From the NCBI RefSeq assembly GCF_037081715.1, contig NZ_JAZDDH010000001.1, forward strand, positions 2,418,001-2,482,000: 64,000 nucleotides of DNA, given 5' to 3'. A program made the position numbers and the translations under genes. Shown here piece after piece: positions 8,412 through 56,327 of the stretch (positions are counted from its first letter, which is position 1; each line of letters opens with the position of its first letter). The stretch is from Halalkalicoccus sp. CG83. Its GTDB lineage: Archaea; Halobacteriota; Halobacteria; Halobacteriales; Halalkalicoccaceae. The notes under the pieces were generated by a model that had not been told where the DNA came from, searched no databases, and was given only the letters and a program-made list of their open reading frames with translations.

Positions 8412-9668
8412 ATGAGCGAGGAGGCGAACCCCTTCGAAAGTCTGCAGGAGCAGATCGACGACGCATCGGCGTATCTCGACGTCGGCGATGACGTGATCGA
8501 GCGGCTCAAACACCCCGAGCGCGTGCTGGAGACGAACCTCACCGTCGAACTCGACGACGGTTCGTTGGAGCGTTTCCGGGCGTTTCGTTCGCAGTTCAAC
8601 GGCGACCGAGGCCCGTACAAGGGCGGAATCCGCTACCACCCGAACGTCTCGCGCGACGAGGTGAAGGCGCTCTCGGGCTGGATGGCCTACAAGACCGCGA
8701 TCGTCGGCATCCCCTACGGCGGCGGAAAGGGCGGGATCGTCATCGACCCGAAGGAGTACTCGGAGAAGGAACTCGAGCGCATCACCCGTTCCTTCGCGAA
8801 GGAGCTTCGCCCGTTCATCGGCGAGGACCGCGACATCCCCGCGCCGGACGTCAACACCGGCCAGCCCGAGATGAACTGGATCAAGGACACCTACGAGACC
8901 CTCGAGAACACGACCGAACCCGGCGTGGTGACGGGCAAGGCGATCGAGAGCGGCGGCAGCGCGGGTCGCGTCGAGGCCACGGGCCGATCGACGATGCTCG
9001 CCGCACGCGAGGCGTTCGACTACCTCGGGCGCGACGTCGCGGACGCGACGGTCGCCGTCCAGGGCTACGGCAATGCCGGCTGGATCGCCGCGAACCTGCT
9101 CGAGGAGCAGGGCGCGACGGTAGTCGCGGTCAGCGACTCCAGCGGCGCGATCCACCACGAGGACGGTCTCGACACGCAGGCCGTACGCGACCACAAGGAC
9201 GAGACCGGCAGCGTCGTCGACTTCGAGGGCGCGACCGACGAGTTCGCCGGCGAGGAGCTGCTCACGCTCGACGTGGACCTGCTCGTCCCCGCGGCCCTCG
9301 AGAACGCCGTCGACGAGGAGCGCGCCCACGATATCGAGGCCGACGTGATCGTCGAGGCGGCCAACGGTCCGCTCACGCCCGACGCCGACGACGTCCTCAC
9401 GGAGAGCGACGTCCTCGTCGTTCCGGACATCCTCGCGAACGCCGGCGGCGTCACCGTCTCGTACTTCGAGTGGGTGCAGAACCGCCAGCGGTTCTACTGG
9501 GACGAGGAGCGCGTGAACGACGAGCTCGAGACGGTGATCGTCAACGCCTTCGACGACCTCGTCGACGCCTACGAGAACAACGACGTGTCGAACTTCCGCA
9601 CTGCCGCGTACGTGGTCGCCATCCGGCGGGTGGCACAGGCGTTCGAGGAGGGCGGCGTCTTCCCCTAA
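8412..9668 (+). CDS. gdhB: Glutamate dehydrogenase
   Basis: A 418-residue hexameric-type glutamate dehydrogenase interconverting glutamate with 2-oxoglutarate and ammonia. The substrate domain shows K70 in [12 protein letters not shown]94 in [18 protein letters not shown] and K106, the three lysines that bind glutamate and catalyse. The Rossmann motif VQGYGNAGW is near residue 217. [12 protein letters not shown] and [19 protein letters not shown] complete the NAD-domain signature. Length is normal for archaea. TTAACAC at 8381-8387, about 29 bp before the ATG, supports a leaderless transcript. Cofactor choice (NAD versus NADP) is not certain from reading alone. It is the only gene on this transcript; a hairpin cluster follows directly. 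Confidence 0.95.
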
Positions 9669-9700
9669 AAGCGAAAGCCCTTGGAACGCACTGACGTGCG

Positions 9701-9905
9701 TTTCTCGCCCTTTGCATTTCGATACAAGAGGCCGCTCCGCGGCCTCTTGGCGTCCCGAAAACCGGAGGTTTTCGGAGACCACCAGGGCCGCTTGCGAACG
9801 ATTCCGATCGGAATCGCTCGCTTAGGACGCCAGCCCTTCCCCACCCCGCTCACGGGACGCGCAGCGTCCCGTTCGCCAGCGAGATCACTTCTCGATCTCG
9901 CGCTG
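9701..9905 (+). repeat. Left hairpin cluster between gdh and ggt
   Basis: Five near-perfect hairpins lie in about 200 bp. A stem with GAGGCCGC and GCGGCCTC arms lies at 9728-9746. CGAAAACC-GGA-GGTTTTCG lies at 9756-9774. A GCGA/CGATTCC arm pairs with GGAATCG/TCGC at 9795-9822. ACGGGACGC and GCGTCCCGT lie at 9853-9873, and GCGAGATC with GATCTCGC at 9880-9902. GGCGTCC (9749-9755) and GGACGCC (9826-9832) could close a three-way junction around the second and third hairpins. Two blocks recur on the other side of ggt: A, 9789-9845, and B, 9850-9908. Confidence 0.75.
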
Positions 9906-10022
9906 CTCGTGCAGGCGGCGTACGTGCTGCCCGCACTCGCGCCGGCGACCGCGCCGCCGGCGGTCGCGACGACCGCTTGCCCCTTCTTCACCATTCAAGA
10001 CGCCCCGGCGCTGACGCCCGCC

Positions 10023-11639
10023 ATGGAGTTCGAGTACCCCTGGCGGTTCGACGGCCGGCGGTCGGCGGCGATGGCCTCCAATGGAATGGTCGCGACGAGC
10101 CACCCCCTCGCCGCCCGCGCGGGCGTTCGCGCGCTCGAGAACGGCGGTACTGCCGCGGACGCCGCGGTCGCTACCGCGGCCGTCCTAAACGTCGTCGAGC
10201 CGCACATGACCGGCATCGGCGGCGACGCGTTCGCGCTCACCCAGTTCGACGGCGAGTACCGCGCGCTCAACGGCAGCGGGAGCGCGCCCGCCGCGGCCGA
10301 CCTCGAGAGCTACCGCGAGCGTACCGATGCCGAGGAGGACGGCGAGCCCGTGATGCCCGAAAACGGCGGCCTGCCCGTGACGGTGCCGGGCGCGCTCGAC
10401 GCCTGGGCGACCCTGATCGAGGAGTACGGCTCGTTCTCGCTCGCGGACGTCCTCGAGCCGGCGATCGGCTACGCCGAGGGAGGCGTGCCGGTCACGGAGT
10501 ACGTCGCACGCCAGTGGGCGAACGCCACGGACCGGATCGCACGGTTCGACCGAACCGCCGAGACATTTCTCGAGGACGGACGGCCGCCAGCCCCGGGAGA
10601 GCGATTCTCGAACCCCGAACTCGCACACAGCTTCGAGCGGATCGCTCGCGAGGGGCCCGAGGCGCTCTACGGCAGCGATCTCGGGAAGGAGGTGATCGAG
10701 ACGGTGGAGGAACACGGCGGCACCCTCGCGCTCTCGGATCTCGAGGATCACGGGAGCGAGTGGACCGAGCCGATCAGCACCGAGTACCGAGGGGTCGAGG
10801 TGCTCGAACACCCGCCGAACGGCCAGGGAATCGTCGCCCTGGAGGCGCTGAACGTCGCCGAGGAGCTCGGTATCGATCCGGATCCCGCCGATGAAGATCG
10901 CCTGCATCACCTGATCGAGTCGATAAAGCTCGCGTTCGCCGACGGCTACGCCCACGTGAGCGATCCCGACCGCGTCGCGGTCCCTACGGAGACGATGCGC
11001 TCGAAGGAGTACGCGAGGAAACGGGCGGGAGAGATCGGCGAGCGCGCGGGCAGCTACGGCGCGAAGGCGGGCGAGCACGCGAACACGGTCTACCTCTCCG
11101 TCGTCGACCCGCAGGGGAACGCCGTCTCGCTCATCAACAGCGTCTACATGAGCTTCGGCAGCGGACTCTCCGCGGGCGGGTTCGCGCTGCAGAACCGCGG
11201 CCACTCCTTCAGCCTCGATCCCGACCACGCGAACGCGCTCGAGCCCGGAAAGCGGCCGTTCCACACGATCATCCCCGCGATGCTTCGCGAGGACGGCGAG
11301 TTCCGCGCCTCGTGGGGCGTGATGGGCGGATCGATGCAGCCACAGGGCCACCTCCAGGTCGTCGCGAACCTCGTCGATAGCGGGCTGAACCCGCAGGCCG
11401 CCCTCGACGCCCCCCGGTTTCGGTGGCTCGAGGGCGACCGGGTGGCCCTCGAGAGCTCGCGGGTTCCCGACGGCGTGATCGACGACCTCCGGGAGCGGGG
11501 CCACGACGTGATCGAGGAGGACGACTTCTTCGCCGAGGGCGGCCACTGGGGCGGAGGACAGATCGTCCACCGCGACGATGAGGGTACGCTGATCGGCGGC
11601 TCCGATCCCCGACGCGACGGTCAGGCGATCGGGTTCTAG
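10023..11639 (+). CDS. Gamma-glutamyltransferase family protein
   Basis: A 538-residue Ntn-hydrolase of the gamma-glutamyltranspeptidase family. The heavy-subunit start MVATSHPLAARAGVRALENGG and VEPHMTGIGGDAFAL are typical. The predicted autocatalytic cut is before Thr355 in HANTVYLSVVDPQGNAV, where Thr is the nucleophile. SFGSGLSAGGFALQNRG and KRPFHTIIPAM form the substrate pocket and the glycine-rich loop. The enzyme cleaves gamma-glutamyl bonds; in haloarchaea, which use gamma-glutamylcysteine rather than glutathione, the substrate is uncertain, and some paralogues are cephalosporin-acylase-like. No signal peptide is evident, so a cytoplasmic site is likely. The ATG at 10023 is preferred because the longer frame reads through a hairpin cluster. 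Both flanks are packed with hairpin repeats. Confidence 0.88.
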   Translation: MEFEYPWRFDGRRSAAMASNGMVATSHPLAARAGVRALENGGTAADAAVATAAVLNVVEPHMTGIGGDAFALTQFDGEYRALNGSGSAPAAADLESYRERTDAEEDGEPVMPENGGLPVTVPGALDAWATLIEEYGSFSLADVLEPAIGYAEGGVPVTEYVARQWANATDRIARFDRTAETFLEDGRPPAPGERFSNPELAHSFERIAREGPEALYGSDLGKEVIETVEEHGGTLALSDLEDHGSEWTEPISTEYRGVEVLEHPPNGQGIVALEALNVAEELGIDPDPADEDRLHHLIESIKLAFADGYAHVSDPDRVAVPTETMRSKEYARKRAGEIGERAGSYGAKAGEHANTVYLSVVDPQGNAVSLINSVYMSFGSGLSAGGFALQNRGHSFSLDPDHANALEPGKRPFHTIIPAMLREDGEFRASWGVMGGSMQPQGHLQVVANLVDSGLNPQAALDAPRFRWLEGDRVALESSRVPDGVIDDLRERGHDVIEEDDFFAEGGHWGGGQIVHRDDEGTLIGGSDPRRDGQAIGF

Positions 11640-11640
11640 A

Positions 11641-11895
11641 AAGCCTCGCTCGGCCTTGGCAGGCCTCCGCTCACGGGACGCTATGCGTCCCGTTCGCCAG
11701 CGAGGTCGCTTCGCGACCTCGCGCTGTTCGCCCTTTTCATCCCCACAAAAGCCCTCACAGCCGCTTGGCAGCGGCTGTTCGCCCTTTTTATTTCCGCCAG
11801 GACCGCTTGCGAGCGATTCCGATCGGAATCGCTCGCTTAGGACGCCAGCCTTTCCCCGCTCCGCTCGCGGGATCGCCGGAGGTGGCGATCCCGTT
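11641..11895 (+). repeat. Right hairpin cluster after ggt
   Basis: Five hairpins follow the ggt stop: ACGGGACGC-TAT-GCGTCCCGT at 11673-11693; GCGAGGTCGC with GCGACCTCGC at 11700-11722; ACAGCCGC with GCGGCTGT near 11757-11778; the GATC-centred GCGAGCGATTCC stem at 11809-11836; and CGGGATCGCC with GGCGATCCCG near 11868-11893. Between them runs a recurring tract GTTCGCCCTTTT followed by C/T-rich bases. Block B of the left cluster recurs at 11670-11728 and block A at 11803-11857, both in direct orientation but in swapped order. Confidence 0.75.
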
Positions 11896-11925
11896 CGCAC
11901 CGGCCACCGCGCCGCCCCGGTCGGA

Positions 11926-13837
11926 TCAGTCCTCGAATGTACCGGCAGACCCGGAGGCAATCTCCTCACCGGCCTGCACGCCCCAGAGGGCGGCGTACGT
12001 GCCACCCAGGTCAAGCAGCTCCTCGTGGGTTCCCCGCTCGGTGATCCGGCCGTCCTCGAGGACGAGGATCGTACCGGCACCTTTCACCGTCGAGAGGCGG
12101 TGGGCGATCGCGAACGTCGTTCGGTCCGCCGTGAGGTCGTCGAGCGAGCGCTGGATCAGCCGCTCGGTCTCGGTGTCGACGTCGCTGGTCGCCTCGTCGA
12201 GGATCAGGATCTCGGGATCCTGGAGGATCGTCCGGGCGATCGAGAGCCGTTGTTGCTGGCCGCCAGAGAGCTTCACGCCCCGCTCGCCGATCCGGGTGTC
12301 GTAGCCCTCGGGCAGGTCCCGAATGAACTCGTGGGCCTCGGCGGCCTTCGCGGCCTCACGGACCTGCTCGTCGTTCGCCTCGAAGTTTCCGTACCGGACG
12401 TTGTCGGCGACGGTGCCGTCGAAGAGGTAGGCGTCCTGGCCGACGCAGCCGATCGACCTCCGCAGACTGGAGAGCGTCAGTTCGCGGACGTCGTGGCCGT
12501 CGACGCGGATCTCGCCGCGGTCGACCTCGTAGAGCCGAAGCAGGAGCTTCAGTAGCGTCGACTTCCCCGCGCCCGTAGGCCCGACCAACGCGACGGTGTC
12601 GCCCGCCTCGGCGACGAAGTCGACGTCGTGGAGCACCCGCTCGCCCGACGACTCTCCCTCGGCCGCCGCGAGCGCGTTCTCGGGGTACGCGAAGTCGACG
12701 TGGCGGTACTCGACGCGTCCATCGGGGTCGTCGAGCGAGACGGCGTCGGGGGCGTCCGTGATCCTGACGGGGACGTCCATCAGCCCGAAGACGCGCTCGC
12801 TCGAGGCCTTGGCGTTCTCGTACTGGTCGACGATGCTCGAGACCTCCGCGAGCGGCGTGACGATCCGCTGGGTCATCAGCAGGAAGGTGACGAACGTCCC
12901 TACGGTCAGCTCGCCGGAGAAAAAGATCGGCGGTCCCGAGATACAGCCAGATCCCGCCGACGACGAACGTCGCGGCGAACGCGGCCCCTGCGAGCAGCTC
13001 CATGCCGGGTCGGTAGACGTAGTTGAGCTTGATCACCTCCATCGTCCGCTCGAAGTAGTCGTAGGAGGCCCGGCGAACGCGTTCGGTCTCGTAGGCCTCG
13101 GTGTTGGCCGTCTTGACCAGCTGGATCCCCCCCAGACTGTTCTCGAGACGGGTGTTGAGATCGCCGACGCTTGCGCGCTGGGCGACGTAGATGGGTTCGA
13201 CCGCCCGCATGAACCACACCGTGAACAGCACCATCGCAGGCACCGCGACGAGGGTGACGAACGCGAGCTGGGCGTTGAGGTAGAACAGCACGGCGGCGAT
13301 CCCCAGTACCATCACGCCGAGGCGAGCGGAGTTCTGCAGCGCGTCGTCGAGGAACACCTCCAGGTTGGAGGCGTCGTTGTTCAGCACGCTCATCACCTCG
13401 CCGGTCTGCTTGTCGTCGAAAAACGGCATGTCGAGCCGTTGCATCCGCTCGAAGCTGTCCGTCCTGACGGCGTGCATCACCCGGTGGGCGAAGACGTTGG
13501 CGGCGACGCCGTAGACCCACGTGAACAGCGCCGTCGTGAGAAACGCCCCGCCGATGAGCGCGACGGAGAACCAGAACTGCCCCGACTGGGTCGCCGGAAG
13601 CCACGCGTCGGGGACCACGGGCAGGGAGAACGGCTCGGTGTCGACGAAGATCGCGTCGATGGCGATCCCGAGGACCAGCGGGGGAAGCAGGCTCGCGATC
13701 CGGGCGACGACGTTCGCAGCCATGCCGAGGCCGAACCACTCGATCTCCGGGCGACCGTAGACGCGGAACAGCCGGACGAGCGGACGCTCGACCCGATCGC
13801 GATAGACGTCGAAGACGCTCTCGTCGTTCGCTCCCAT
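11926..13837 (-). pseudogene. ABC exporter (fused membrane and ATPase domains), frameshifted
   Basis: A type-IV ABC half-exporter of about 636 residues split by a +1 shift. The N-terminal frame starts at the ATG 13837 and covers six membrane helices up to GGIWLYLG (about residue 302). The C-terminal frame resumes with the equivalent of PPIFFSGELTVGTFVTF and runs through Walker A GPTGAGKST, signature LSGGQQQR, Walker B ILILDEATS and the switch IAHR to the stop at 11926. Removing one G from the GGG run at 12935-12937 (CCC on the plus strand) joins both frames perfectly. The break may therefore be a recent mutation or a homopolymer error. Intact relatives export lipids, drugs or peptides as homodimers; no partner half-transporter is next to it. 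Confidence 0.85.
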
Positions 13838-13890
13838 TCACCGATACCGACGGAGGGATCGGGCATGTACCCGGCGATTCCGGAACCGGA

Positions 13891-15033
13891 CTACAGCCCC
13901 AGCTCCCGTCCGATCACGAGGTGTTGGATCTCGCTCGTTCCCTCGCCGATCTCCATCAGCTTCGCGTCGCGGTAGAAACGCTGAGGGGCGAAGTCCTCGG
14001 TGTAGCCGTACCCTCCCAGCACCTGGACGGCGTCCTCCGCGACCTCGCGACACGCTTCGCTCGCGTCGAGCTTCGCGAGCGCGCTCTCCCGGGTGACCTC
14101 CTCGCCGCGGTCGTAGGTGTCGGCGGCACGGTGGGTCAACAGCCGTGCGCGTTCGGTCTTGCGGTGCATCGAGACGATCATGTTCCGGACCGCGTCGAAC
14201 TCACAGATCGGCTGGCCGAACTGCTCACGTTCGCGGCTGTACTCGTGGGCGGCCTCGTAGGCGCCCTGGGCCAGCCCCACCGAGAGCGCCGCGATGCTGA
14301 TCCGCCCGCCGTCGAGCGTCTTTCTCGTCTGTTCCCAGCCGTCGCCCTCCTCGCCGAGCAGGCGATCCTCGGGAATTCGGACGTCGTCGAGGGCGATCTC
14401 ACACGTGGGTGAGGCGTTCAGTCCCATCTTCTCCCAGATCGTCGTCACCTCGAAGCCGTCGTCCTCGCGGGGGTCGACGATGAAGGTAGAGATGCCGTCG
14501 TAGCCCGCGTCGGGATCGGTCACGGCCTTCACGAGGATCGATCCCGCCTCCGAGGCGTTCGTGATGAACTGCTTGGTGCCGTCGAGCACGTACTCGTCGC
14601 CCTCCTTCTTCGCTCGCGTCTCCATGTTCGAGGCGTCGCTCCCGCTGCCGGGCTCGGTCAGCGCCCAGCCGCCGACGTACTCGCCCTCCGCGAGCGGGCG
14701 GAGCCACTCCTCCTTCTGTTCGTCCGTGCCGAAGAGTTCGATCGGCTTCGAGGCGAGGCTGACGTGGGCGGCATAGGAGAGGCCGATCGACCCCGAGACC
14801 CGCCCGAGCTCCTCGGTGACCAGCGCGTACATGAGCTGGTCGCCGCCGAGTCCGCCGTACTCCTCGCTCACGGGCACCCCCATCATGTCGAGGCCGGCGA
14901 GCTGTTCGAACACCTCCTCCGGATAGCGGTGCTCCGACTCGATCTCCTGGGCGATCGGCTCGATCTCCTCGGTACAGAAGTCCCGGACCGTATCGCGGAT
15001 CATTCGGTGTTCGTCGGGGAGCCTGAAGTCCAT
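13891..15033 (-). CDS. Acyl-CoA dehydrogenase
   Basis: A 380-residue FAD-dependent acyl-CoA dehydrogenase, full length, introducing the 2,3-double bond in acyl-CoA and passing electrons to ETF. Visible are the N-terminal helices, the flavin-binding WALTEPGSGSD and TKQFITNASEAG, the middle beta domain, and the C-terminal helices with AVQVLGGYGYTEDFAPQRFYRDAK. E364 in MEIGEGTSEIQ is the predicted catalytic base. This Glu position is that of short/medium- and branched-chain enzymes; the chain specificity is unclear. The ATG at 15033 gives the family start MDFRLPDEHRMIRD. It lies 53 bp upstream of the ABC gene start region on the same strand, with no sign of a tight operon. Confidence 0.92.
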   Translation of the reverse strand: MDFRLPDEHRMIRDTVRDFCTEEIEPIAQEIESEHRYPEEVFEQLAGLDMMGVPVSEEYGGLGGDQLMYALVTEELGRVSGSIGLSYAAHVSLASKPIELFGTDEQKEEWLRPLAEGEYVGGWALTEPGSGSDASNMETRAKKEGDEYVLDGTKQFITNASEAGSILVKAVTDPDAGYDGISTFIVDPREDDGFEVTTIWEKMGLNASPTCEIALDDVRIPEDRLLGEEGDGWEQTRKTLDGGRISIAALSVGLAQGAYEAAHEYSREREQFGQPICEFDAVRNMIVSMHRKTERARLLTHRAADTYDRGEEVTRESALAKLDASEACREVAEDAVQVLGGYGYTEDFAPQRFYRDAKLMEIGEGTSEIQHLVIGRELGL

Positions 15034-15058
15034 ACCCTACGATCAGGAGGAACCGAGG

Positions 15059-15290
15059 TCAAGGTTTCGTTGGGTCAGGCGATCGCTCGCGTTCGGTCAC
15101 GCTGAGCACCTTCCCCGCCGCGATGATCCGGCCCATGTCACGGACCGCGAAGCTCCCGGGCTCGGTGATCCCCTCGGCGGGTTCGACGCTCGACGACACC
15201 CCTGATCGAACGGTGACGTCGCCCGACCGGACGAGGTCGGGGATTCTCCGTACGGTCGAGTTCGTCCGGTCGGGGCGAGGACCACGAAGC
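15059..15290 (-). pseudogene. C-terminal remnant of an EF-1A-like elongation factor
   Basis: Upstream of the acyl-CoA dehydrogenase, a minus-strand frame without a start codon reads IPDLVRSGD, then [20 protein letters not shown] and [12 protein letters not shown] before a stop at 15059-15061. This follows the third (C-terminal) domain of archaeal EF-1alpha, whose end runs LGxFAxRDMGxTVAAGxVL. The GTPase and tRNA-binding domain 2 are missing, and an in-frame TAG lies just upstream near 15297. It is most simply a degenerate end of a translation-factor copy or of a related GTPase. It overlaps the promoter of the divergent kinase gene, so it can hardly be expressed as a functional protein. Confidence 0.55.
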
Positions 15291-15322
15291 GTCTAAATCC
15301 CTGGGACGCCTCCCTTCGAGGA

Positions 15323-16120
15323 ATGGAGATTCGTCGGTTGATCCGCGGGCAGGTCGACGAGTCACAGCTCGAACGCGTCGCCCGCGAGATTGCTACACGC
15401 TACGACCGCGATCAGGTCAAGCTCTCGGTGCTGGAGGCCGACAACTGGCTCTCGACGCCCTGTGTGGTCGACGACGAGTGGTTCGTGAAGGTGATCAGTC
15501 CGCAGAACGCGCTCGTTCACGCGGTCTTCACCGGCGCGCGTAACCTCGGCGTCTTCTCGCGCGGCGCCGAGGGCTTCTTCGAGCGGTTCGAGGACCCGCT
15601 CGCGATGAGCCAGCACGAACTCGAGGCCACCCGGAAGGTCCGCGAGATCGGGATCAACGCGCCCGAACCCATCGAGGCGTTCGGCGTCGGCGAGGTCGGC
15701 GTGCTGATGCTCGAGTACCTCCCCGAGTTCCGGACCTTCGACGACCTCAAGCCGGCGGAGGTCGAGGAGCTAGCTCCCGATCTGTTCGAGGCGCTCTCGC
15801 TGATGCACGACCACAACCTCGCCCACGGCGATCTGCGCGGCGAGAACGTGCTCGTCCACGACGGCGAGCTCTACTTCATCGACGCGACGAACGTTCGGGA
15901 GGACGGCCTCGCGACCGCCCGCGCCTACGACCTGGCTTCGGCACTCGCGACCCTCGAGCCCGCGATCGGCGGGAGACGCGCCGTCGAGATCGCGACCGAG
16001 GTCTACGACGCCGACGAACTGCTCGCGGCGCGTGACTTCCTCGATTTCGTCCGCCTCCGTCCGGATCACGACTTCGAGGCCACCCACGTGAAGGGCGAGA
16101 TCGAGAAGCGGGCGGACTGA
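15323..16120 (+). CDS. RIO-like / Bud32-type serine/threonine protein kinase
   Basis: A 265-residue atypical protein kinase. The N-terminal lobe has VVDDEWFVKVISPQNALV with the likely ATP-binding Lys, and LMLEYLPEFRTFDD marks the hinge. The catalytic loop is HNLAHGDLRGENVLVHDG, with Asp as the base and Asn as metal ligand, followed by YFIDATNV in place of the DFG motif. RIO kinases have this IDxx form. The start ATG (15323) has a TATA-like TCTAAATC near 15290-15298. There is no obvious winged helix of RIO2 and no KEOPS partner nearby, so the RIO-like assignment is by motifs only. The target is unknown; it lies between the EF-1A remnant and an aldehyde dehydrogenase. Confidence 0.75.
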   Translation: MEIRRLIRGQVDESQLERVAREIATRYDRDQVKLSVLEADNWLSTPCVVDDEWFVKVISPQNALVHAVFTGARNLGVFSRGAEGFFERFEDPLAMSQHELEATRKVREIGINAPEPIEAFGVGEVGVLMLEYLPEFRTFDDLKPAEVEELAPDLFEALSLMHDHNLAHGDLRGENVLVHDGELYFIDATNVREDGLATARAYDLASALATLEPAIGGRRAVEIATEVYDADELLAARDFLDFVRLRPDHDFEATHVKGEIEKRAD

Positions 16121-16161
16121 CGGGCATCTTTTTATTCTCTCCTACCCGATCTTCGAGCGTC

Positions 16162-17694
16162 ATGAGCCAACAGCTAACGAGCACCGCACAGCACTACATC
16201 GGGGGCGAGTGGACCGACGGCGACGGCGACCGCACCTTCGAGAGCGTCAATCCCGCCACCGGTGAGACCCTCGGCGAGTTCCACCAGGGTACCGACGCCG
16301 ACGTCGATACCGCGCTTGCGGCCGCCGACGACGCCCAGGAGGAGTGGCGCAGCCTCTCCTACATCGATCGTGCCGAGTACCTCTGGGAGATCTACCACGA
16401 ACTCCGCGACCGCCACGACGAACTCGGCGAGATCGTCACCCAGGAGTGCGGCAAGGAGATCAGCGAGGGGAAGGCCGACGTCGCCGAGGCCTGGCACATG
16501 GTCGAGTGGGCCGCCGGCAACGCCCGCCACCCCCACGGCGACGTCGTCCCCAGCGAGATCCCCGCCAAGGACGCCTACATGCGCCGCAAACCTCGCGGCA
16601 TCGTCGGCTGTATCACGCCCTGGAACTTCCCCGTCGCCATCCCCTTCTGGCACATGGCCATCGCCCTCGTCGAGGGCAATACGGTGGTGTGGAAACCCGC
16701 CGAGCAGACGCCGTGGTGCGGCCAGATCATCGCCGAGATGTTCGACGACAGCGGCATTCCCGAAGGCGTGTTCAACATGATCCAGGGCTTCGGCGACGCC
16801 GGGAACGCCATCGTCGAGGACTCTAGAGTGGACACCGTTCTGTTCACCGGCAGCGCCGAGGTCGGCCACAAGATCGCGGGGAAGGTCGGCGGCGAGCCCG
16901 GGAAGCTGGCGGCCTGCGAGATGGGCGGCAAGAACGGGATCCTGATCACCGAAGAGGCCGATCTCGACGTCGCCGTCCACTCGGCGGTCATGTCCTCCTT
17001 CAAGACGACGGGCCAGCGCTGCGTCTCGAGCGAGCGGCTGATCGTACACGCGGACGTCTACGACGAGTTCAAGGAACGCTTCGTCGAGCTCGCAGAAGAG
17101 GTCGCCGTCGGCGACCCGTTGGAAGAGGAGACGTTCATGGGGCCGCTCATCGAGGCCGAGCACCGCGAGAAGGTCCGGAAGTACAACGATCTCGCGCGCG
17201 AGGAGGACGTGAACGTCTTGGTCGACCGAACGGAGCTCGCGGAGGGCGAGATCCCGGAGGGAAGCGAGGAGGGGTTCTGGGTCGGGCCGTTCGTCTACGA
17301 GGCCGACCCCCACGAACCGCTTCGGTGCACCCACGAGGAGGTGTTCGGCCCCCACGTCGCACTCATGCAGTACGAGGGCGACGTCGAGGAGGGGATCGCG
17401 ATCCACAACGACACCGATTACGGGCTGGCGGGGGCGATCATCTCGGAGGACTACCGCCAGATCAACGCGTTCCGCGATCGGGCGGAGATCGGGCTGGCGT
17501 ACGCGAACCTACCGTGTATCGGCGCGGAGGTCCACCTGCCGTTCGGCGGGGTGAAGAAGTCGGGTAACGGGTATCCCTCCGCCCGAGAAGCGATCGAGGC
17601 GGTGACCGAGCGGACGGCGTTCACGCTGAACAACTCGAAGGAGATCGAGATGGCCCAGGGGCTCTCGGCCGACATCACCACCAGCCAGGACTGA
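16162..17694 (+). CDS. NAD(P)-dependent aldehyde dehydrogenase
   Basis: A 510-residue aldehyde dehydrogenase oxidising an aldehyde to its acid. Motifs are complete: cofactor site ITPWNFPVAIPFWHMAIALVEG, FTGSAEVGHKIAG, general base E253 in ACEMGGKNG, nucleophile C287 in GQRCVSSERL, and EVFGPHVALM in the catalytic domain. The C-terminal LPFGGVKKSGNGYPSAREA is typical of the family. The overall pattern is closest to semialdehyde/2,5-dioxovalerate-type or aminoadipate-semialdehyde-type enzymes, but the substrate is not fixed. A TATA-like TTTTTATT at 16129-16137, about 28 bp before the ATG, supports the start. It is transcribed alone, the next gene on the strand being only a decayed fragment. Confidence 0.9.
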   Translation: MSQQLTSTAQHYIGGEWTDGDGDRTFESVNPATGETLGEFHQGTDADVDTALAAADDAQEEWRSLSYIDRAEYLWEIYHELRDRHDELGEIVTQECGKEISEGKADVAEAWHMVEWAAGNARHPHGDVVPSEIPAKDAYMRRKPRGIVGCITPWNFPVAIPFWHMAIALVEGNTVVWKPAEQTPWCGQIIAEMFDDSGIPEGVFNMIQGFGDAGNAIVEDSRVDTVLFTGSAEVGHKIAGKVGGEPGKLAACEMGGKNGILITEEADLDVAVHSAVMSSFKTTGQRCVSSERLIVHADVYDEFKERFVELAEEVAVGDPLEEETFMGPLIEAEHREKVRKYNDLAREEDVNVLVDRTELAEGEIPEGSEEGFWVGPFVYEADPHEPLRCTHEEVFGPHVALMQYEGDVEEGIAIHNDTDYGLAGAIISEDYRQINAFRDRAEIGLAYANLPCIGAEVHLPFGGVKKSGNGYPSAREAIEAVTERTAFTLNNSKEIEMAQGLSADITTSQD

Positions 17695-17768
17695 CCGATC
17701 GACGGGGCCGGCGATCGATCCGTCTCCGAATCCGTCGAACTGGCTACGAACGGTCGACCCTTCCAGAG

Positions 17769-18029
17769 GCGATCGGCGACGTGTCTCGTAACGCCACCGC
17801 GTTCTGGCACCGGGACGAATCGTACACGCTCACCTTCGAGCCCGACGGGAAGGACCCCGCTATCGCCACGAACGTAGGCCGGGTTCACGGGGGCTTGCGG
17901 GGATCGCCACAGGTCGCTACGGGGCTTCTCGACATGGTCGAGAAGCCGGCACGACTCCTGTTCGGCGGGAACTACGACCGGCTGGTCGACGTGAAGACGA
18001 AATACGACCCGAAAACCAGTCCTCTCTGA
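17769..18029 (+). pseudogene. C-terminal remnant of a BBE-type FAD-linked oxidase
   Basis: The frame AIGDVSRNATAFWHRDESY followed by TLTFEPDG, and after a short garbled part GGNYDRLVDVKTKYDPKT and a stop, matches the end of berberine-bridge-like FAD oxidases. That end normally has an (A/P)xxATAFxHRD strand and a final YGxNYDRLxxVKxxYDPxNxF. The region between the two motifs is shortened and the large FAD-binding part is absent. A GTG at 17781 could start an 82-residue product but has no ribosome-site or promoter evidence. It follows the aldehyde dehydrogenase gene by 74 bp. It could also be a short gene of unknown role, which I consider less likely. Confidence 0.45.
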
Positions 18030-18303
18030 ACCGGAACGTCGAACCACGAACGGCGGGCGACTGACGGAACGACGCCGGTCGGCGGTTCTCGATCGGATTC
18101 GAACGGGGAGCCGACGAGAGAGAGGACGTCGCGAAGCGAGCCGAGGCTCGGGAATGTACGGAAACGAGGTGGCGGGTGCGAGTGGCGTCTGCCCCCGGGC
18201 GGCCCAACGGGGGCGTGCCGACCGGATCTGTTGTTGCCGTCAAGCGAGAAAAGCGCTTTCGGGCAGTTCTTGGTTCGGGCGCGAGCCATATAAGCGTATC
18301 ACA
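18030..18303. other. Intergenic stretch without a recognisable gene
   Basis: About 270 bp between the oxidase remnant and the tail of the nitrilase gene. No frame has haloarchaeal coding character. A TATA-like CATATAAGCG at 18287-18296 on the plus strand has no gene behind it. Read on the minus strand it could serve a short transcript, but there is no support. Confidence 0.4.
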
Positions 18304-19122
18304 TCAGCGTCGTCGATCGCGCAGGGCGGGGAACTCCTCGCGAACGCGCTCGACGCGACCGGGATCGAGCTCCGCGAACACCAGAGCGGGCTCGTCGCCG
18401 GTGCTCGCGAGCGTCGTCCCCCAGGGATCGAAGACGGTCGATCGACCCAGCAGCGTCGCATCGGAGAACTCGCCGCTGCCGTTGATCGTCGCGACGTACT
18501 GCTGGTTCTCGATCGCGCGAGCCCGCGAGAGCGTCGTCCAGTGCTCGACCCGCGGGTAGGGCCATGCGCTCGGCACGAGCACGAGGGTGACGCCTCGCTC
18601 GGCGAACTCCCGGTAGAGTTCGGGAAACCGCAGGTCGTAACACGTCGTCGTGGCGACGGTGAACCCCTCGAGTTCGGCGACCGCACCGTCGAGGTTCTCG
18701 CCGGGGACCAGCAGTTCCGCCTCCGCGGACTCGTAGCCGAAGAGGTGGTGCTTGCGATAGACCGCACGGCGCTCGCCCGAGCGATCGAACAGGACCGCGG
18801 TGTTCGCCAGCCCCTCGTCGGCGGGCGTCGGAAGGTCGGTCATCGTGGCCGTCTCCGCCAGGTCCTCGACGACGGTACCCGCCAGCACGTTGATTCCGCG
18901 GTCGGCGGCCGCGTCGGCGATCCGCGAGAGCGTCGGCCCCGAGAGCCCCTCGGCCGATTCGGCGTACCGATCGAACGCGAAATAGCCGACCGTGAAGACC
19001 TCCGGCAGCGCCACGAGGTCCGCGCCACGATCGGCGGCCTCGTCGATCGCCTCGAGCGCGCGCTCGAGGTTCCGCTCGGTCTCGCCGCCCTCGACGCCGA
19101 GTTGGGCCAGCGCGAGCCTCAT
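18304..19122 (-). CDS. Nitrilase-superfamily amidohydrolase
   Basis: A 272-residue carbon-nitrogen hydrolase. The Glu-Lys-Cys triad is complete: E41 in LVALPEVFTVGYF, K124 in YRKHHLFGY and C161 in TTTCYDLRFPELYR. The second Glu region is PAWPYPR-like (VPSAWPYPRVEHW). Such enzymes hydrolyse omega-amides, N-carbamoyl compounds or, in the Nit2-like branch, 2-oxoglutaramate-type amides. The C-terminal DPWGTTLASTG and AELDPGRVERVRE match the Nit/omega-amidase branch. Start ATG 19122 sits inside the end of the upstream gene (4-bp overlap, 19119-19122), so the two are co-translated. The substrate is uncertain. Confidence 0.85.
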   Translation of the reverse strand: MRLALAQLGVEGGETERNLERALEAIDEAADRGADLVALPEVFTVGYFAFDRYAESAEGLSGPTLSRIADAAADRGINVLAGTVVEDLAETATMTDLPTPADEGLANTAVLFDRSGERRAVYRKHHLFGYESAEAELLVPGENLDGAVAELEGFTVATTTCYDLRFPELYREFAERGVTLVLVPSAWPYPRVEHWTTLSRARAIENQQYVATINGSGEFSDATLLGRSTVFDPWGTTLASTGDEPALVFAELDPGRVERVREEFPALRDRRR

Positions 19123-19547
19123 TCGTCGAGGTGCTCCCTGAGCGCGCGTTCGAGGTTCTTCAGCTCGTCGTCCAGGTTCTTCTTGAAGAAGCGCTCGACG
19201 CCCGGCAGCTTACCGTCGACGACGAACTCGTTTACGAGCATACAGCCGTCTTCCGTCTCCTCGAGACTGTGCTCGCCGGTGACGCGCATCAGCTTCGAGC
19301 GACCGACGAACTTCACGAACCGGGGCGGATCGCGCTCGACGTCCTCGGTCTCGACGCGGGCGGTCTGTCTCACGACCGGTATCGGGAGGGCGACGTGCCA
19401 CGTCGCCGATCGCCCCTCGGGATCGGTGACCTCGTAGTCCTCGACGACGCTTATCGCGCGTGCGCGCTGTTCCGGGTCCGAGATGAACGCCCAGACCTCC
19501 TCACACGGTGCCGGCAGTTCGAAACGTCGTTCTACCCGGACGGTCAT
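19119..19547 (-). CDS. SRPBCC/START-like small protein (CoxG/polyketide-cyclase type)
   Basis: A 142-residue helix-grip (SRPBCC) protein. The start VRVERRFELPAPCEEVWAFI is the typical first strand and helix, SDPEQRARAISVVEDYEV follows, and the long C-terminal helix reads RFFKKNLDDELKNLERALREHL. The fold binds hydrophobic ligands such as lipids; catalytic activity is not implied. It overlaps the downstream nitrilase by 4 bp, and such START-like genes often accompany metabolic enzymes without a known common pathway. There is no signal peptide or membrane helix. Ligand and function are unknown. Confidence 0.75.
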   Translation of the reverse strand: MTVRVERRFELPAPCEEVWAFISDPEQRARAISVVEDYEVTDPEGRSATWHVALPIPVVRQTARVETEDVERDPPRFVKFVGRSKLMRVTGEHSLEETEDGCMLVNEFVVDGKLPGVERFFKKNLDDELKNLERALREHLDE

Positions 19548-19599
19548 GCTCGACGGTGGGGTGGCCAGTTCCTAAAAGACGCCGGAAGCGGAGCAGGAA

Positions 19600-19824
19600 T
19601 CAGCTCAGCGTGACCTTCCAGGTCGTCGAGCGCGAGCGTCCCCACTTCTCGATCTCGACCTCGTCGGACTTCTCGTCGAGGTGGGGAAGCCGCGCGCCGA
19701 CCTGTTTGGAGGAGAGGCCGAGCGCCGCGGCGATGTTCTTCGACCGGAAGTACTGCTCGCCGGCCGAGACGCTGTCGGAGAGATAATCGAGGATGCGACG
19801 GTCCTCGTCCGTGATGTCGCTCAT
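19600..19824 (-). CDS. DUF7123-type winged-helix small protein
   Basis: A 74-residue protein, starting MSDITDEDRRILDYLSD, with a helix-turn-helix pattern (FRSKNIAAALGLSSKQVGARL) and a C-terminal wing EIEKWGRSRSTTWKVTLS. This matches a haloarchaeal family of unknown function (DUF7123). A TATA box, GTTATTAAC at 19846-19854 on the plus strand, is centred 26 bp upstream of the ATG at 19824. That favours it over an ATG at 19830. The basic helix suggests nucleic-acid binding, but no target is known. It is separate from the SRPBCC gene (52 bp gap). Confidence 0.75.
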   Translation of the reverse strand: MSDITDEDRRILDYLSDSVSAGEQYFRSKNIAAALGLSSKQVGARLPHLDEKSDEVEIEKWGRSRSTTWKVTLS

Positions 19825-19898
19825 CGGCATTCCTAGGGGTTTGGAGTTATTAACGATTTCCGCTCACAGGTAGGGTCCCGGCGTCGATACCGGCTCGC

Positions 19899-20081
19899 TC
19901 ACAGGTAGAGGTGGATCGCGAGCACCGAGAGCATCCCCGCGACCATCGCGGCCGCGAACCCCCACGCACTCGCGAGCCCGCCGGGGAGGACGAGTGCGAC
20001 TAGCGCTCCACCGACGGCGACGAGGCCGAAGAGCAGCCCGAGACCCATACCCCTGTCCGAGACCGCGGCCGTCCGTTCCAT
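19899..20081 (-). CDS. DUF7525-type two-helix membrane protein
   Basis: A 60-residue protein, MERTAAVSDRGMGLGLLFG, with two hydrophobic helices (about residues 12-31 and 37-58) joined by a short Gly-Ala turn. Comparable tiny membrane proteins recur next to phoU-like or stress genes in haloarchaea (DUF7525), with no known role. The codon pattern is typical of the surrounding genome. The start codon is the only ATG early in the frame. It lies between a winged-helix gene and the PhoU/AbrB regulator, all on the minus strand. Confidence 0.65.
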   Translation of the reverse strand: MERTAAVSDRGMGLGLLFGLVAVGGALVALVLPGGLASAWGFAAAMVAGMLSVLAIHLYL

Positions 20082-20167
20082 GTCCGTCCGTACTCCGAGG
20101 GGCGGTTAGTGTGTTGCGGTTGTCCGCCGAACGGTGCGACGGATCGCGGGCTCGTTGCGGGCCGAAC

Positions 20168-21199
20168 TCAGCGAATGGAGACATGCTCTGACTCCTCGTT
20201 GAGCGCGAGGTTCGCGGCGATCTCCGCGTTTCGCATGGCGTACTGGGCGGTCTGCTGGAGGCTGACGAGCACCTCGCGGACCTGGAGCAGGTCCTCGTTC
20301 GACATCTCCGGGAGGTCGTCGAGGATCTCGCTCTCCCGGTCCGAGATCTCCTTGAACAGTTCGCGCACCTGAATGGTCCGGTCGTAGTCGCGCTCGACGG
20401 CGGCCTCGACCGCGAGCGCGGTGATCTCGTTGACGCGGTCGGTGAACTCCCGGATGCGCCGGACGGTCGCGCTGTCGACGTTGAGCGAGTGGTTCTCCGA
20501 CTCGAGGACGATCTCCGCGATGTCCTCGGCGTTGTCCGCGGTGAGCTCGAGGTTCTTCGCGATCGATCGATAGCCGATCAGCGCGAAACCGTCGTCGAGG
20601 CCCACCGCCCGCGCGAGCGTGGGGTTCTGGTAGGCGGTGAAGATCAGGCGCAACAGGAGCACGAAGATCTTGTTGGCCTGGCGTTCGCGGTTCAGCGCTC
20701 GCTGTGCGAGGTCGGGATTGCCCATCGCGAGCGCCTTGACCGCCTCGCCGCGCATCGTGCTGCCGGTGTTCTCGAGGCGGATGAGTAGGTTGTCTAGCGT
20801 GAAGTCCTCCGGATCGACCGAACAGCGGATCGCGATGCTCTCGGGCGTCTCCTCGATGACGCCCAGCCCCATCAGCTGCGTCTCCGCGCGGTAGACCGCG
20901 TTGATGTGGTCCGAGGAGAGCGCGCCCTCCTCCTGGTTCACGTGGATGATCCGCCGGCCCAGCACGTACTGTGCGACGATCGCCCGCTCGACGGCGGTGG
21001 CGTCTAGCTCGTCGGCGTGGATGATCGCCTCGCTCTCCTCGCGGTCGGCCGACTCGGGCATCACGGTCAGCGCGCCCTTGCTTCCCCGGCGAAGCGTCAC
21101 CTCGTCGCCCTTCTCGACGCCGTGTTCCTTCGCCCACTCGGCCGGCAGCGTCATCGCCAGCGTCGACGGCCCCAGCCGCTGGACCTTTCTCGTATCCAT
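20168..21199 (-). CDS. Phosphate uptake regulator with AbrB-like N-terminus and PhoU domain
   Basis: A 343-residue protein combining a SpoVT/AbrB DNA-binding hairpin (residues 1-45: MDTRKVQRLGPSTLAMTLPA, then WAKEHGVEKGDEVTL) with a PhoU-like helical domain (about 110-330; ESENHSLNVDSATV and repeated E/D-rich helices for metal binding). Haloarchaea carry several such fusions, which control phosphate transport or respond to Pst status. No pst genes are adjacent. The ATG at 21199 is supported by a TATTAATA box at 21223-21230, about 27 bp upstream, and by the domain start; the longer frame to 21244 reads through that box. The PhoU domain lacks further partners in this window. Confidence 0.85.
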   Translation of the reverse strand: MDTRKVQRLGPSTLAMTLPAEWAKEHGVEKGDEVTLRRGSKGALTVMPESADREESEAIIHADELDATAVERAIVAQYVLGRRIIHVNQEEGALSSDHINAVYRAETQLMGLGVIEETPESIAIRCSVDPEDFTLDNLLIRLENTGSTMRGEAVKALAMGNPDLAQRALNRERQANKIFVLLLRLIFTAYQNPTLARAVGLDDGFALIGYRSIAKNLELTADNAEDIAEIVLESENHSLNVDSATVRRIREFTDRVNEITALAVEAAVERDYDRTIQVRELFKEISDRESEILDDLPEMSNEDLLQVREVLVSLQQTAQYAMRNAEIAANLALNEESEHVSIR

Positions 21200-29721: not shown

Positions 29722-31707
29722 TTAGTCGCCCTGCACTTTCTGCTGGATATCGGAGACGACCTCGGGGTTGCGAAGCGTCGAGGTGTCGCCGAGCTCCTCC
29801 TCGTTCGCGATGTCCTCGAGCAGCCGCCGCATGATCTTCCCCGACCGCGTCTTCGGCAGTTCGTCGGTGAAGACCACCTGTTCGGGTCGGGCGATCGGTC
29901 CGATGGCGTCCTCGACGCCCGCGACGATCTGCTCGCGAAGCTCCTCGTCGCCCTCGTAGCCGTCCTCGGTGATGACGTAGGCGTAGACCGCCTCGCCCTT
30001 CATCTCGTGGTCGCCGCCGACGACGGCGGCCTCGGCGACGCCCTCGACGCCGACGATCGCCGACTCGATCTCCATGGTGCCCAGACGGTGTCCGGAGACG
30101 TTCAGCACGTCGTCGACCCGGCCCAACACCGTGATGTAGCCGTCCTCGTCGATCTTCGCGCCGTCCTCGGGGAAGTAGACCCATTCGTCACTGTCCGGAT
30201 CCGAGTACTCCTTCCAGTACTCGTCGAGGAACCGCTCATCGTTCTGATAGAGCGTTCGGAGCATCCCCGGCCACGGCTTATCGACCGTGAGGTAGCCGGC
30301 TCGACCCGCCTCGACCTCGTTGCCGTCGGTGTCGACGATGTTGGCGCTGATGCCCGGGAGCGGTGGGCCCGCAGTGCCGGGCTTCATGGTTCCGACCCCC
30401 GGGAGAGTGGTCACCATCATCCCGCCGGTCTCGGTCTGCCACCACGTGTCGACGATCGGGCAGTCCTCCCCGCCGATGTGCTTGTAGTACCACTTCCAGG
30501 CGCGGGGGTTGATCGGCTCGCCGACGGTCCCGAGCAGACGCAGGCTGGAGAGGTCGTGCTGATCGGGGTACTGCTGACCCCACTTCATGAACGCCCGGAT
30601 CGCCGTCGGCGCCGTGTAGAGCTGGTTGACCTCGTAGTCCGCGACGATTTCCCACATCCGGTCCTTCTCGGGATAGTCGGGAGTACCCTCGTACATCACG
30701 CTCGTCGTCCCGAGCGCGAGCGGACCGTAGACGATGTAGGAGTGACCGGTGATCCAGCCGATGTCCGCCGAACACCAGTAGGTGTCCTCCGGCTTGACGT
30801 CCAGCACGGTCTGGGTCGTCCACGCCGAGTACGCCAGGTAGCCGCCGGTGGTGTGTTTGACGCCCTTGGGCTCGCCGGTGGTGCCCGAGGTGTACATGAT
30901 GAACAGCATGTCCTCGGCATCCCGGGTCACCGGCTCGACCTCCGCGCCCTCCTGTTCGGCGACCAGTTCCTCGTAGTCGTGCTGGTCCTCGCTCAGGTCG
31001 TGACCGAAGCCCTCGTCGCCGAGACGGTCGACGACGACCGTCGTGGTGTCGTGATCGACGCTTTCGAGCCCCTCGTTCGCCTTCTCGAGGTGGTCGAGGG
31101 GATCGCCGCGACGGTAGTAGCCGTCGCAGGTGATCAGGTACTCCGAGTCGGCGCTCTTCATGCGGGTCGCGAGAGCGTCGGCGGAGAAGCCCGCGAACAC
31201 CACCGAGTGGGGCGCGCCGATGCGCGCACACGCCAGCATCGCGATCGGCAGCTCCGGGATCATCGGCAGGTACATGGTGACGACGTCGTCCTCCTCGACG
31301 CCCATCTCGCGGAAGGTGGCCGCGAGCTCGTTCACCTCCGTCTGGAGCTCCTCGTAGGTGTAGGTGCGCGTCTGGTCGGTGGGCTCGCCGACCCATTCGA
31401 GGGCGATCTCGTCGCCACGACCCTCCTCGACGTGGCGGTCGACGCAGTTGTAGGAGGCGTTGAGCTTCCCGTCCTGGAACCACTCGTAGAAGGGGGCGTC
31501 GCTCTCGTCGAGGACGGTGTCGTACTCCTCCTGCCACTCGAGCAGGTCGGCCGCCCGCTCCCAGCACTCGGGCCAGTTCTGCTCGAACTCCTCGTAGATC
31601 GACTCGTCCGATACGTTCGCCTGTTCCGTGAACGCCGAGGGCGGATCGAAGCTGTCCTGCTCTTCGAGCCGCGCCTCGAGCTGCACGTCCTCGTTGTCTC
31701 CTGCCAT
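29722..31707 (-). CDS. acs: Acetyl-CoA synthetase, copy 1
   Basis: A 661-residue AMP-forming acetyl-CoA synthetase, which makes acetyl-CoA from acetate, ATP and CoA. Motifs are complete: P-loop YTSGTTGEPKGV, WCSADIGWITGHSY, DTWWQTETGGMMVT, hinge YFPEDGAKIDEDGYI with VLGRVDDVLNVSGHRLGT, and the C-terminal catalytic Lys in PKTRSGKIMRRLLE. The ATG at 31707 has an ATAGTAAAC box at 31735-31743. It stands downstream of the Bat regulator gene (start 33508) and upstream of the symporter operon, all on the minus strand. The paralogue at 33613-35559 has long identical DNA tracts in common with it. Confidence 0.95.
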   Translation of the reverse strand: MAGDNEDVQLEARLEEQDSFDPPSAFTEQANVSDESIYEEFEQNWPECWERAADLLEWQEEYDTVLDESDAPFYEWFQDGKLNASYNCVDRHVEEGRGDEIALEWVGEPTDQTRTYTYEELQTEVNELAATFREMGVEEDDVVTMYLPMIPELPIAMLACARIGAPHSVVFAGFSADALATRMKSADSEYLITCDGYYRRGDPLDHLEKANEGLESVDHDTTTVVVDRLGDEGFGHDLSEDQHDYEELVAEQEGAEVEPVTRDAEDMLFIMYTSGTTGEPKGVKHTTGGYLAYSAWTTQTVLDVKPEDTYWCSADIGWITGHSYIVYGPLALGTTSVMYEGTPDYPEKDRMWEIVADYEVNQLYTAPTAIRAFMKWGQQYPDQHDLSSLRLLGTVGEPINPRAWKWYYKHIGGEDCPIVDTWWQTETGGMMVTTLPGVGTMKPGTAGPPLPGISANIVDTDGNEVEAGRAGYLTVDKPWPGMLRTLYQNDERFLDEYWKEYSDPDSDEWVYFPEDGAKIDEDGYITVLGRVDDVLNVSGHRLGTMEIESAIVGVEGVAEAAVVGGDHEMKGEAVYAYVITEDGYEGDEELREQIVAGVEDAIGPIARPEQVVFTDELPKTRSGKIMRRLLEDIANEEELGDTSTLRNPEVVSDIQQKVQGD

Positions 31708-55400: not shown

Positions 55401-56327
55401 GTGATCGCCGACCGCCTCGAGGATCTCGAACGTGTCGTCGCCGGTACGCGCGAAGTACCCGATCTCGAGATCGAACCGCTCACAGCCCATCTCGAGCAGC
55501 CTCCGGATCTTCGCCATGAACGACGTTTGCGGATCGGCGGTCGTCTCGTAGAGGGCGCGCAGAAACCGCTCGTGGTCCTGAAGCGCCGTTTTGGCCCGCG
55601 TTCGATCCAGTAGCGTGCCCAGCATTCGTTCGACCTCGCGTTCGGGCCGTTCGGGGCCGAAGAACTCCTCGGGCGGCGTGTAGTAGAAGTTGTGACAGAC
55701 CGTGTCGTCGTAGACGAGATGGGGGTGGATCCGGACGATGTCGGAGAGGGTCTCCGCCGGGACCTGCGTTCGATCGTACTGACAGAGCGCGATGCAGTCC
55801 TCGCCGTGGAAGAGCTCGTTCACCTTGCTCTCGTACTCCATGAACTTCTCGAGCGTCGTCTCCTCCTCGAGGATCCACGAGGTCTCGGCGCCCACCCGGA
55901 GCGCCTCGTACTCGGCGGTGGCGTCCTCGATGGCGTCGGCGTAGAACGAGAGCATCTCGTCGGGCTCGAACGTGCCGTTTCTGAGGTACGTCTCCTCGAC
56001 GCTGTGGATCGTCAGCGCCCCGGACTCGAGGGCGGCGTCGACGTCGATGCCGCCGAGTCGCAGTGCCTCGAGCACCTCGGACTCGGAGCTCTCGTCGACG
56101 ACGTACAGACACCGCTCACCCTCCTCCAACCCCTGTTGCATGAACGGAACGACGGCCGCGAACCGCTCCTCGTTCGTCTCGTAGACCAGCGCGAGATGAT
56201 CGTTCGTGTCGTGGCCCTCGAGCGGTTCGACGGGGCCGCGAAAGGTGGGGCTCGAACGAAGCGCCTCGAGGCCGCTCTCCAAGCCGAGCGTTCCGGGCGG
56301 GGTCGCCTCCAGGGCGTCCCCACTCAT
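52422..56327 (-). CDS. Multi-GAF Bat-type regulator with MEDS domain
   Basis: A 1301-residue soluble regulator. Residues about 40-230 form a MEDS (DcmR-like) sensory domain (DHLALVYETNEERFAAVVPF, LRVGAETSWILEEETTLEKF). Three tandem GAF domains follow (about 265-420, 430-590, 595-750), each opening with a KLxxLLxxGCExFxLE-like helix and ending in a QWVxYELER-like coil, so they arose by duplication. Two more GAFs lie at about 760-905 and 930-1075. The end is a Bat domain (1085-1235) and an HTH_10 DNA-binding domain (SDELTDRQLEVLKTAYASGY; ISQPTFNTHLRTAHRKL). It has no kinase or receiver domain, so it most likely links ligand sensing straight to transcription. Target genes and ligand are unknown. 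A hairpin and AT-rich boxes lie in its leader. Confidence 0.9.
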   Translation of the reverse strand: MSGDALEATPPGTLGLESGLEALRSSPTFRGPVEPLEGHDTNDHLALVYETNEERFAAVVPFMQQGLEEGERCLYVVDESSESEVLEALRLGGIDVDAALESGALTIHSVEETYLRNGTFEPDEMLSFYADAIEDATAEYEALRVGAETSWILEEETTLEKFMEYESKVNELFHGEDCIALCQYDRTQVPAETLSDIVRIHPHLVYDDTVCHNFYYTPPEEFFGPERPEREVERMLGTLLDRTRAKTALQDHERFLRALYETTADPQTSFMAKIRRLLEMGCERFDLEIGYFARTGDDTFEILEAVGDHELIEAGVTDSLRDTYCEKLLASSGPVSVIDAAEVGWTDDPAYDRFGLDAYFATTVHVGSEEYGTLCFASETTCERPYTDAERALLDLMGQWVSYELDRQRRERYLRESYEITSDHTLSFERKLDRLLEMGCEWFGLEMAGLNYLPSWDGSFRLEKGVGFGSETSSNGPITTNPSEGCFCRRTITESEPVAMTDVHGTDWEDDRIHREVGLTSYLGTKVTSGTSLYGTLWFGSTEPRERPFSEAERTFIELIGQWIGYEIERRDHERSQRALSEIAADTDRTFDRKLRDLFDLGCERFDLELGGIARVDPETDLFEVEAVSEDHEHLVPGARVVLSETYCRVIANEGGTAGVTDPMNDGFADTRAYEEFGVRAYLGTRIELDGDHDRTLFFVASKPRDREFSEAERTFQHLMGQWVKYELERERREGRLTALNEMSRELTDAETPDEVADCVIRHAQRGLQLPLTTVAYYDEDTGELSTAAQTASAEDGLPTATLCAPGTGAAWDAFVLNKTRFVDGDGNERSVGTRFSEVAAIPLARHGVFLTASTSDGFGPSERDFLGTVAATIESVLTRTERKRLLQERERTLESQNETLQRLNRVNGIIRNIDQALVRASTRSEIEAVVCTQLARTGPYDLAWIGGYDAVTGDLTPRERDGDETGDPDLTADTVDDERTPTAGAITTREPQVVDNVLTDPPLEEWQKRALDRGYRSIIALPLVYKESLYGVLTVYTSQPGVFDGLEGAVLEELSDTIAYAMHVVESRQAIVDDSTVELEFDVGDLRADVTELVERTDGEFEFESVVPRSDGSIRGYFTMRGATADEVSEAARSLSLTDVALVTERDGSDGPEGLFEATLTADCPLVTVLEHGATPRGLTVTPEEARFVVELAAQADVRQFVERLRARHSGMELVAKRERERERTATTRQGFGTTLSDELTDRQLEVLKTAYASGYFESPRERTGTEIATTLDISQPTFNTHLRTAHRKLCGLLFEGSGG

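Follow-up and report, generated by a model that had tools for sequence, protein, structure and literature searches.

The gamma-glutamyltranspeptidase gene ggt of Halalkalicoccus sp. CG83 is flanked on each side by a copy of a dispersed element of haloarchaea, a non-coding mosaic of hairpins, which probably spreads and exchanges its stems and may act in 3′ untranslated regions (3′-UTRs). The description of this family is firm. No earlier description of the element was found in the open-access literature, subscription papers and supplements being outside the search.

In the window, i.e., the whole stretch of 64,000 nucleotides that was analyzed, ggt has the glutamate dehydrogenase (GDH) gene on one side and a convergent ABC transporter gene on the other. 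The preliminary description had reported two repeat blocks around ggt in direct orientation, in the order A-B before the gene and B-A behind it, and their coordinates, order and orientation hold. Block A (79 nt) is present at 9779-9857 and 11794-11872 with 91% identity, and block B (64 nt) at 9846-9909 and 11667-11730 with 88% identity. In BLAST searches against the whole genome, the E-values were 2e-25 for block A and 6e-16 for block B, which excludes chance. The GTTCGCCCTTTT tract that had been seen between the hairpins is a conserved linker, located at 11727-11740 and 11778-11791 on the right and as a variant at 9704-9717 on the left. The hairpin clusters are likewise real, with RNA folding z-scores against shuffles of -7.2 (left) and -5.7 (right), but instead of five hairpins per side, seven were counted in the left cluster and six in the right one. 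The first hairpin of either cluster, which starts at the preceding stop codon (of GDH or ggt), had been overlooked. Rfam covariance models gave no plausible match in the region 9600-12000 at E-values up to 1. A putative leader peptide on the reverse strand was dropped, as its ATG is not conserved. A mechanically called ORF (9681-11639) crosses the left cluster in frame with ggt, so that automatic annotation may add a false N-terminal extension to the protein. The ABC transporter gene 3′ of ggt (11926-13837, minus strand) appears to be split by a frameshift into ORFs 11926-12876 and 12356-13837 in different frames.

Comparison of about 140 copies yielded a framework of invariant order, which in most cases begins at a stop codon or immediately beside one. 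Its 5′ part consists of AAAGCCCTC, hairpin hp1, slot 1, TCGCCCTTTTCAT, slot 2, GTCCACCAGG and hp2, and its 3′ part continues from hp2 with GCCAGCCTTTCCCCG..., slot 3, hp3 and ...GCCGGCCACC. The stretch of 56 nt from AAAG to CCAGG, comprising AAAGCCCTC, a 22-nt hairpin and TCGCCCTTTTCAT..CCAGG, was termed U1 and stands alone in distant families. The full core of about 165 nt is non-coding and too short for a transposase gene. Its linkers are pyrimidine-rich, with a short linker T-run of 3-5 T. Of the full elements in the catalog, 71 in number, 39 are free of inserts and 29 have slot 2 occupied. The inserts mostly add about 57 nt in slot 1, 51-58 or 108-110 nt in slot 2 and 60 nt in slot 3, and by these sizes they are one or two double-hairpin modules. 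Module B, a two-hairpin accessory unit of about 57-60 bp that corresponds to block B, was catalogued at eight loci, four times in slot 1 and four times in slot 3.

The positions of these parts around ggt are listed in Table 1. In the left cluster, U1 is followed by a module in slot 2, then by hp2, by module B in slot 3 and finally by hp3. In the right cluster, slot 1 of the first U1 holds module B, and a second U1 precedes hp2 and hp3. Blocks A and B have not exchanged places: both flanks keep the core order U1-hp2-hp3, and the apparent permutation arises from module B, which occupies slot 3 of the left cluster but slot 1 of the right one, together with the tandem U1. Tandem U1 pairs with a spacing of 51 nt were also found at other loci. 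The earlier idea of modular units that move therefore applies to block B, which changes slot, but not to block A, which is fixed core.

Table 1. Genes and parts of the hairpin element around ggt (positions in the window).
Feature	Position	Strand	Details
GDH gene, upstream neighbor of ggt	8412-9668		stop TAA 9666-9668
Left U1	9674-9717	+	5 nt past GDH stop; model R1 43.4 bits
Left U1, parts	AAAGCCCTT 9674-9682; hp1 9683-9704; TCGCCCTTTGCAT 9705-9717	+	
Left slot 2, accessory double hairpin	9725-9775	+	9725-9749, 9755-9775
Left linker-hp2-linker (block A)	9777-9842	+	GACCACCAGG 9777-9786; hp2 9794-9821; GCCAGCCCTTCCCC 9829-9842
Left slot 3, double-hairpin module B (block B)	9849-9905	+	9849-9876, 9877-9905
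Left hp3 and terminal linker	9909-9950	+	hp3 9909-9936; CTCGCGCCGGCGACC 9936-9950
ggt, gamma-glutamyltranspeptidase	10023-11639	+	PF01019, 480 bits
Right first U1	11640-11665	+	AAAGCCTCG abuts ggt stop TAG 11637-11639; hp1 around 11652-11665
Right slot 1, double-hairpin module B (block B)	11670-11726	+	11670-11697, 11698-11726
Right linker closing first U1	11727-11746	+	TTCGCCCTTTTCATCCCCAC
Right second (tandem) U1	11748-11801	+	model R1 73.4 bits at 11746-11801
Right second U1, parts	AAAGCCCTC 11748-11756; hp1 11757-11778; TCGCCCTTTTTATTTCCGCCAGG 11779-11801	+	
Right hp2 and linker (block A)	11809-11857	+	hp2 11809-11836; GCCAGCCTTTCCCC 11844-11857
Right hp3 and terminal linker	11868-11908	+	hp3 11868-11893; TTCGCACCGGCCACC 11894-11908

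The stems of the element vary while their pairing is kept. In 60 distinct 40-mers, which were picked on linker sequence alone, 8.08 of the nine stem positions were paired, compared to 4.66 ± 0.19 (maximum 5.42) in 2000 shuffles in which the 3′ halves were re-dealt. In alignment A1, each of the nine pairs varies at both partner positions, and 88.7% of the positions are paired versus 25-49% when the partners are slid. The hp1 loop TGGC is conserved to 92-98%. For hp2 the mean perfect stem has a length of 10 versus 4.7 in shuffles. An outer stem is supported by a folding prediction and single examples, such as the compensatory change from TGAAAG..CTTTCA to ACTAAG..CTTAGT (in G134 and at one locus of G185). 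G·U pairs are rare, with 0 of 191 positions in hp1 and 8 of 258 in hp2; these are raw counts with no RNA reference from the same genomes, and hp3 is excluded. Their scarcity may be a sign that perfect DNA inverted repeats are kept or re-made. When orthologous stem pairs within the genus Halalkalicoccus were compared, 64% differed at five or more of the nine arm positions, mostly to the same degree as unrelated sites, and identical 22-mer stems recur at unrelated loci. The simplest and probably correct reading, inferred from the comparison of copies, is that whole stems are replaced by exchange between copies.

Blocks A and B recur at other loci of this genome and in all six congeneric genomes searched; the flanks of ggt therefore do not represent a single old duplication. 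In seven Halalkalicoccus genomes, model R1 detected 93 U1 units (6-23 per genome). Of 242 haloarchaeal genomes, 72 had matches to this model, as did 34 of the 74 genera sampled, and the exact linker pattern occurred in 51 of 292 genomes, with a reversed-pattern control near zero. High copy numbers occur in family f1, g7 of family f6, g8 of family f7 and part of g53 (family f4), and elsewhere there are mostly one to five copies. The 18 pattern matches in viral contigs are at about the chance level for a collection of that size, by a rough estimate, and the sole match in the plasmid collection, of 39 nt and from Streptomyces, was taken as chance.

The element often lies at gene ends. For 70 of 144 catalogued copies, the stop codon of a coding ORF on the same strand lies -1 to 9 nt before AAAG, with peaks at 0, 1, 3 and 6, compared to a background of about 1% of the intergenic strand-positions in the window that are equally near a stop. 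The most widely common U1 site is the 3′ end of the gene for the termination factor aCPSF1 (FttA), whose identity was confirmed with TIGR03675 (853.8 bits, cut-off 580.2). This site is occupied in families f1, f4, f6, f7 and f8, and in f8 the copies are mostly single and mostly located there. The second common site is the 3′ end of the GDH gene (f1, f6, f7). Behind aCPSF1 the element is decayed or missing in several close relatives, which shows that it is not essential at this site. Some copies lie elsewhere, e.g., in the intergenic region from which UDG and valS diverge (both named by reading their translations), so that a role in the 3′-UTR is not general. A 3′-UTR function of the element is plausible, though less likely than not, and a specific link to aCPSF1 is possible but unlikely. 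At one locus, the coding sequence enters U1 and the stop codon is formed inside the hairpin, which looks like an insertion over the end of the gene. In two species (L152, L159), this stop of the upstream gene results from an altered loop, TGAC or TAGC in place of the conserved TGGC.

Several observations suggest that the element is mobile, which we consider reasonably probable: flanking repeats, differences in occupancy among congeners, and the recurrence of identical stems at loci that are unrelated. Direct repeats of about 31-56 nt enclose U1 at five acyl-CoA dehydrogenase loci, which come from four families. The distance from the end of the left repeat to AAAG is 0-1 nt, and the right repeat starts 3-10 nt after CCAGG; the scores are 38-82 versus a control maximum of 32, but all five loci concern one gene type and may reflect one shared event. 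The repeats of locus L043 are identical at 41 of 42 positions. Duplicated acyl-CoA dehydrogenase 3′ ends around a lone U1 were observed in several families, near position 1500 of L043, L075, L087, L088 and L095. At most loci no flanking direct repeats were detectable, and the comparisons yielded no clean empty site that showed a simple target duplication. With respect to presence and absence, at least four congeners carry the element at the EF-1beta locus, where G000 lacks it, and at the IscA locus it is present in four, reduced to a remnant in G006 and absent from G004 and G005. In G032, a double hairpin splits an hp1 stem that stays intact in G164.

The preliminary description had also raised the question of whether ggt sits in a mobile context in sister strains. 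The order GDH-element-ggt is found in G000, in G006 and in Halococcaceae MAGs, which does not support such a context. In four congeners (G001-G004), which differ in this from the present genome, G006 and sister genera, a segment corresponding to 9.9-20.1 kb is inverted and ggt follows the gene for a PhoU-domain protein. One breakpoint of this approximately 10-kb inversion (window 9900-20130) is at the left hairpin cluster and the other immediately 3′ of the PhoU-domain gene (20174-21199, minus strand), and in G002 the element is present at both junctions. The left element thus marks a breakpoint, and ggt is not a mobile cassette.

In the mechanism that we propose, the element would spread as a unit into intergenic DNA and settle mostly just past stop codons. 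Its stems would be replaced whole through exchange with other copies, and its linkers would be kept because something recognizes them. REP/BIME repeats are often located at the 3′ ends of genes. Like those repeats, copies of the present element at such positions may act as structured 3′-UTR elements that alter the ends or the stability of transcripts. Our best reading would be a BIME/PATE-like mosaic repeat, for which no mobilizer was found. In fungal mitochondria, double-hairpin elements likewise insert into one another, and to our knowledge no mitochondrial hairpin element has a fixed linker framework of such a kind. The sponge-mitochondrial elements resemble the one described here as short intergenic hairpin units invading one another (PMC2800124); mitochondrial elements differ in being organellar and having no known link to a termination factor.

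Among the alternatives, the terminal-only PATEs of Haloquadratum walsbyi come close in form: they are 52 bp long with a palindrome of about 22 bp between conserved terminal oligonucleotides, and their palindromes receive insertions of small mobile repeats (SMRs) (PMC3119063). PATEs, SMRs and the present element are all haloarchaeal, short and transposase-free, with a palindrome between conserved ends and small repeats inserted, and U1, with 56 bp and a 22-nt hairpin, into which modules insert, resembles the 52-bp form. That our copies are such PATEs, i.e., remnants of IS605-type (TnpB/TnpA) elements with SMR-like repeats in their palindromes, is nevertheless improbable. Model R1 gave a best E-value of 0.11 at 30 TnpB loci of seven genomes, where the TnpB ends read GGCGGGGTAGTTGAC or GAGGATGTCA; by these differing end sequences an IS605/PATE origin is ruled out for the TnpB ends of these genomes. 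G079 contains 15 U1 and no TnpB match. Unlike PATEs, the element has hypervariable, apparently exchanged stems, a multi-hairpin core, stop-codon adjacency and, at some sites, direct repeats, PATEs being described without target duplications. REP/BIME repeats and REPINs share with it the character of extragenic multicopy palindromes in mosaic arrays, but the palindrome sequence of REPs is conserved and linked to a RAYT (Y1) transposase (PMC2817692, PMC3116915), whereas here the stems vary and the linkers are conserved. The Y1 transposase (PF01797) was absent in seven of ten genomes tested (G000, G001, G002, G014, G079, G151, G185) despite many copies, and present once in G004, twice in G163 and once in G221; a REP/RAYT assignment was rejected on this ground. 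Because of the mismatch to the TnpB ends, the lack of TnpB in G079 and the mostly missing Y1, the element was filed neither as PATE nor as REP.

A different explanation holds that the element is a cis-acting RNA and not mobile, namely a 3′-UTR terminator or processing signal for aCPSF1/FttA that was founded behind the gene of this factor for autoregulation and recruited by other genes later. The abutment of half of the U1 copies on stop codons, the aCPSF1 3′ end as the one site common to five families with most f8 single copies, the strong covariation and the conserved loop and linkers all agree with it. The element also resembles archaeal intergenic terminators in its 3′ location and in having a short T tract behind a hairpin. 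aCPSF1 works with U-tracts (PMC8716108), and in Haloferax one hairpin gave 59% termination (PMC7237163). These terminators differ in that they are T stretches and lack a conserved framework of several hairpins. Flanking direct repeats, copies between divergent promoters and the loss behind aCPSF1 in close relatives argue against a purely cis-acting RNA, as does the near-absence of G·U pairs, which is unusual for compensatory evolution of RNA, and we regard this explanation as somewhat unlikely. A combined version, in which the element is a new class of archaeal 3′ element that arose behind aCPSF1/FttA as its autoregulatory target and became a mobile 3′-end cassette in some lineages, appears distinctly unlikely. 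In that case the pyrimidine-rich linkers would be read by a protein, for which aCPSF1 and its KH domains are a possibility, the stems would need only to pair and could swap freely, and the cassette would have installed itself at the stop codons of many genes in some lineages. Variable paired stems with conserved flanks behind stop codons and direct copies on either side of ggt also recall attC-type sites of integrons forming gene-plus-element cassettes, with ggt as a cassette. This is highly improbable: the order GDH-element-ggt is conserved across genera and not shuffled, copies occur between divergent promoters, and by inspection neither core site (RYYYAAC or GTTRRRY) is present in the linkers AAAGCCCTC and TCGCCCTTTTCAT. 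If one flank of ggt had been duplicated long ago and then rearranged, the 88-91% identity of the shared blocks would be accounted for, but by the criterion of the preliminary description this can practically be dismissed: both blocks recur at numerous further loci and in every congener, and the 3′ ends of GDH and ggt carry the element in other genomes, too.

Most known palindromic repeats keep the palindrome, whereas here the joining sequences are kept and the stems are replaced across many haloarchaeal genera. This points to a possible recognition of linkers plus shape and to active exchange of hairpins. The site behind the gene of a termination factor raises the question of whether aCPSF1/FttA acts on the element or regulates itself via the element. 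Moreover, the element marks at least one rearrangement breakpoint and aids the correction of gene-end annotation. Elsewhere in the window, two paralogous stretches (29743-31650 and 33634-35532) lie 3.89 kb apart with 80-94% identity, and three 62-nt repeats, about 475-489 bases apart and 69-76% alike, are present at 54499-55523.
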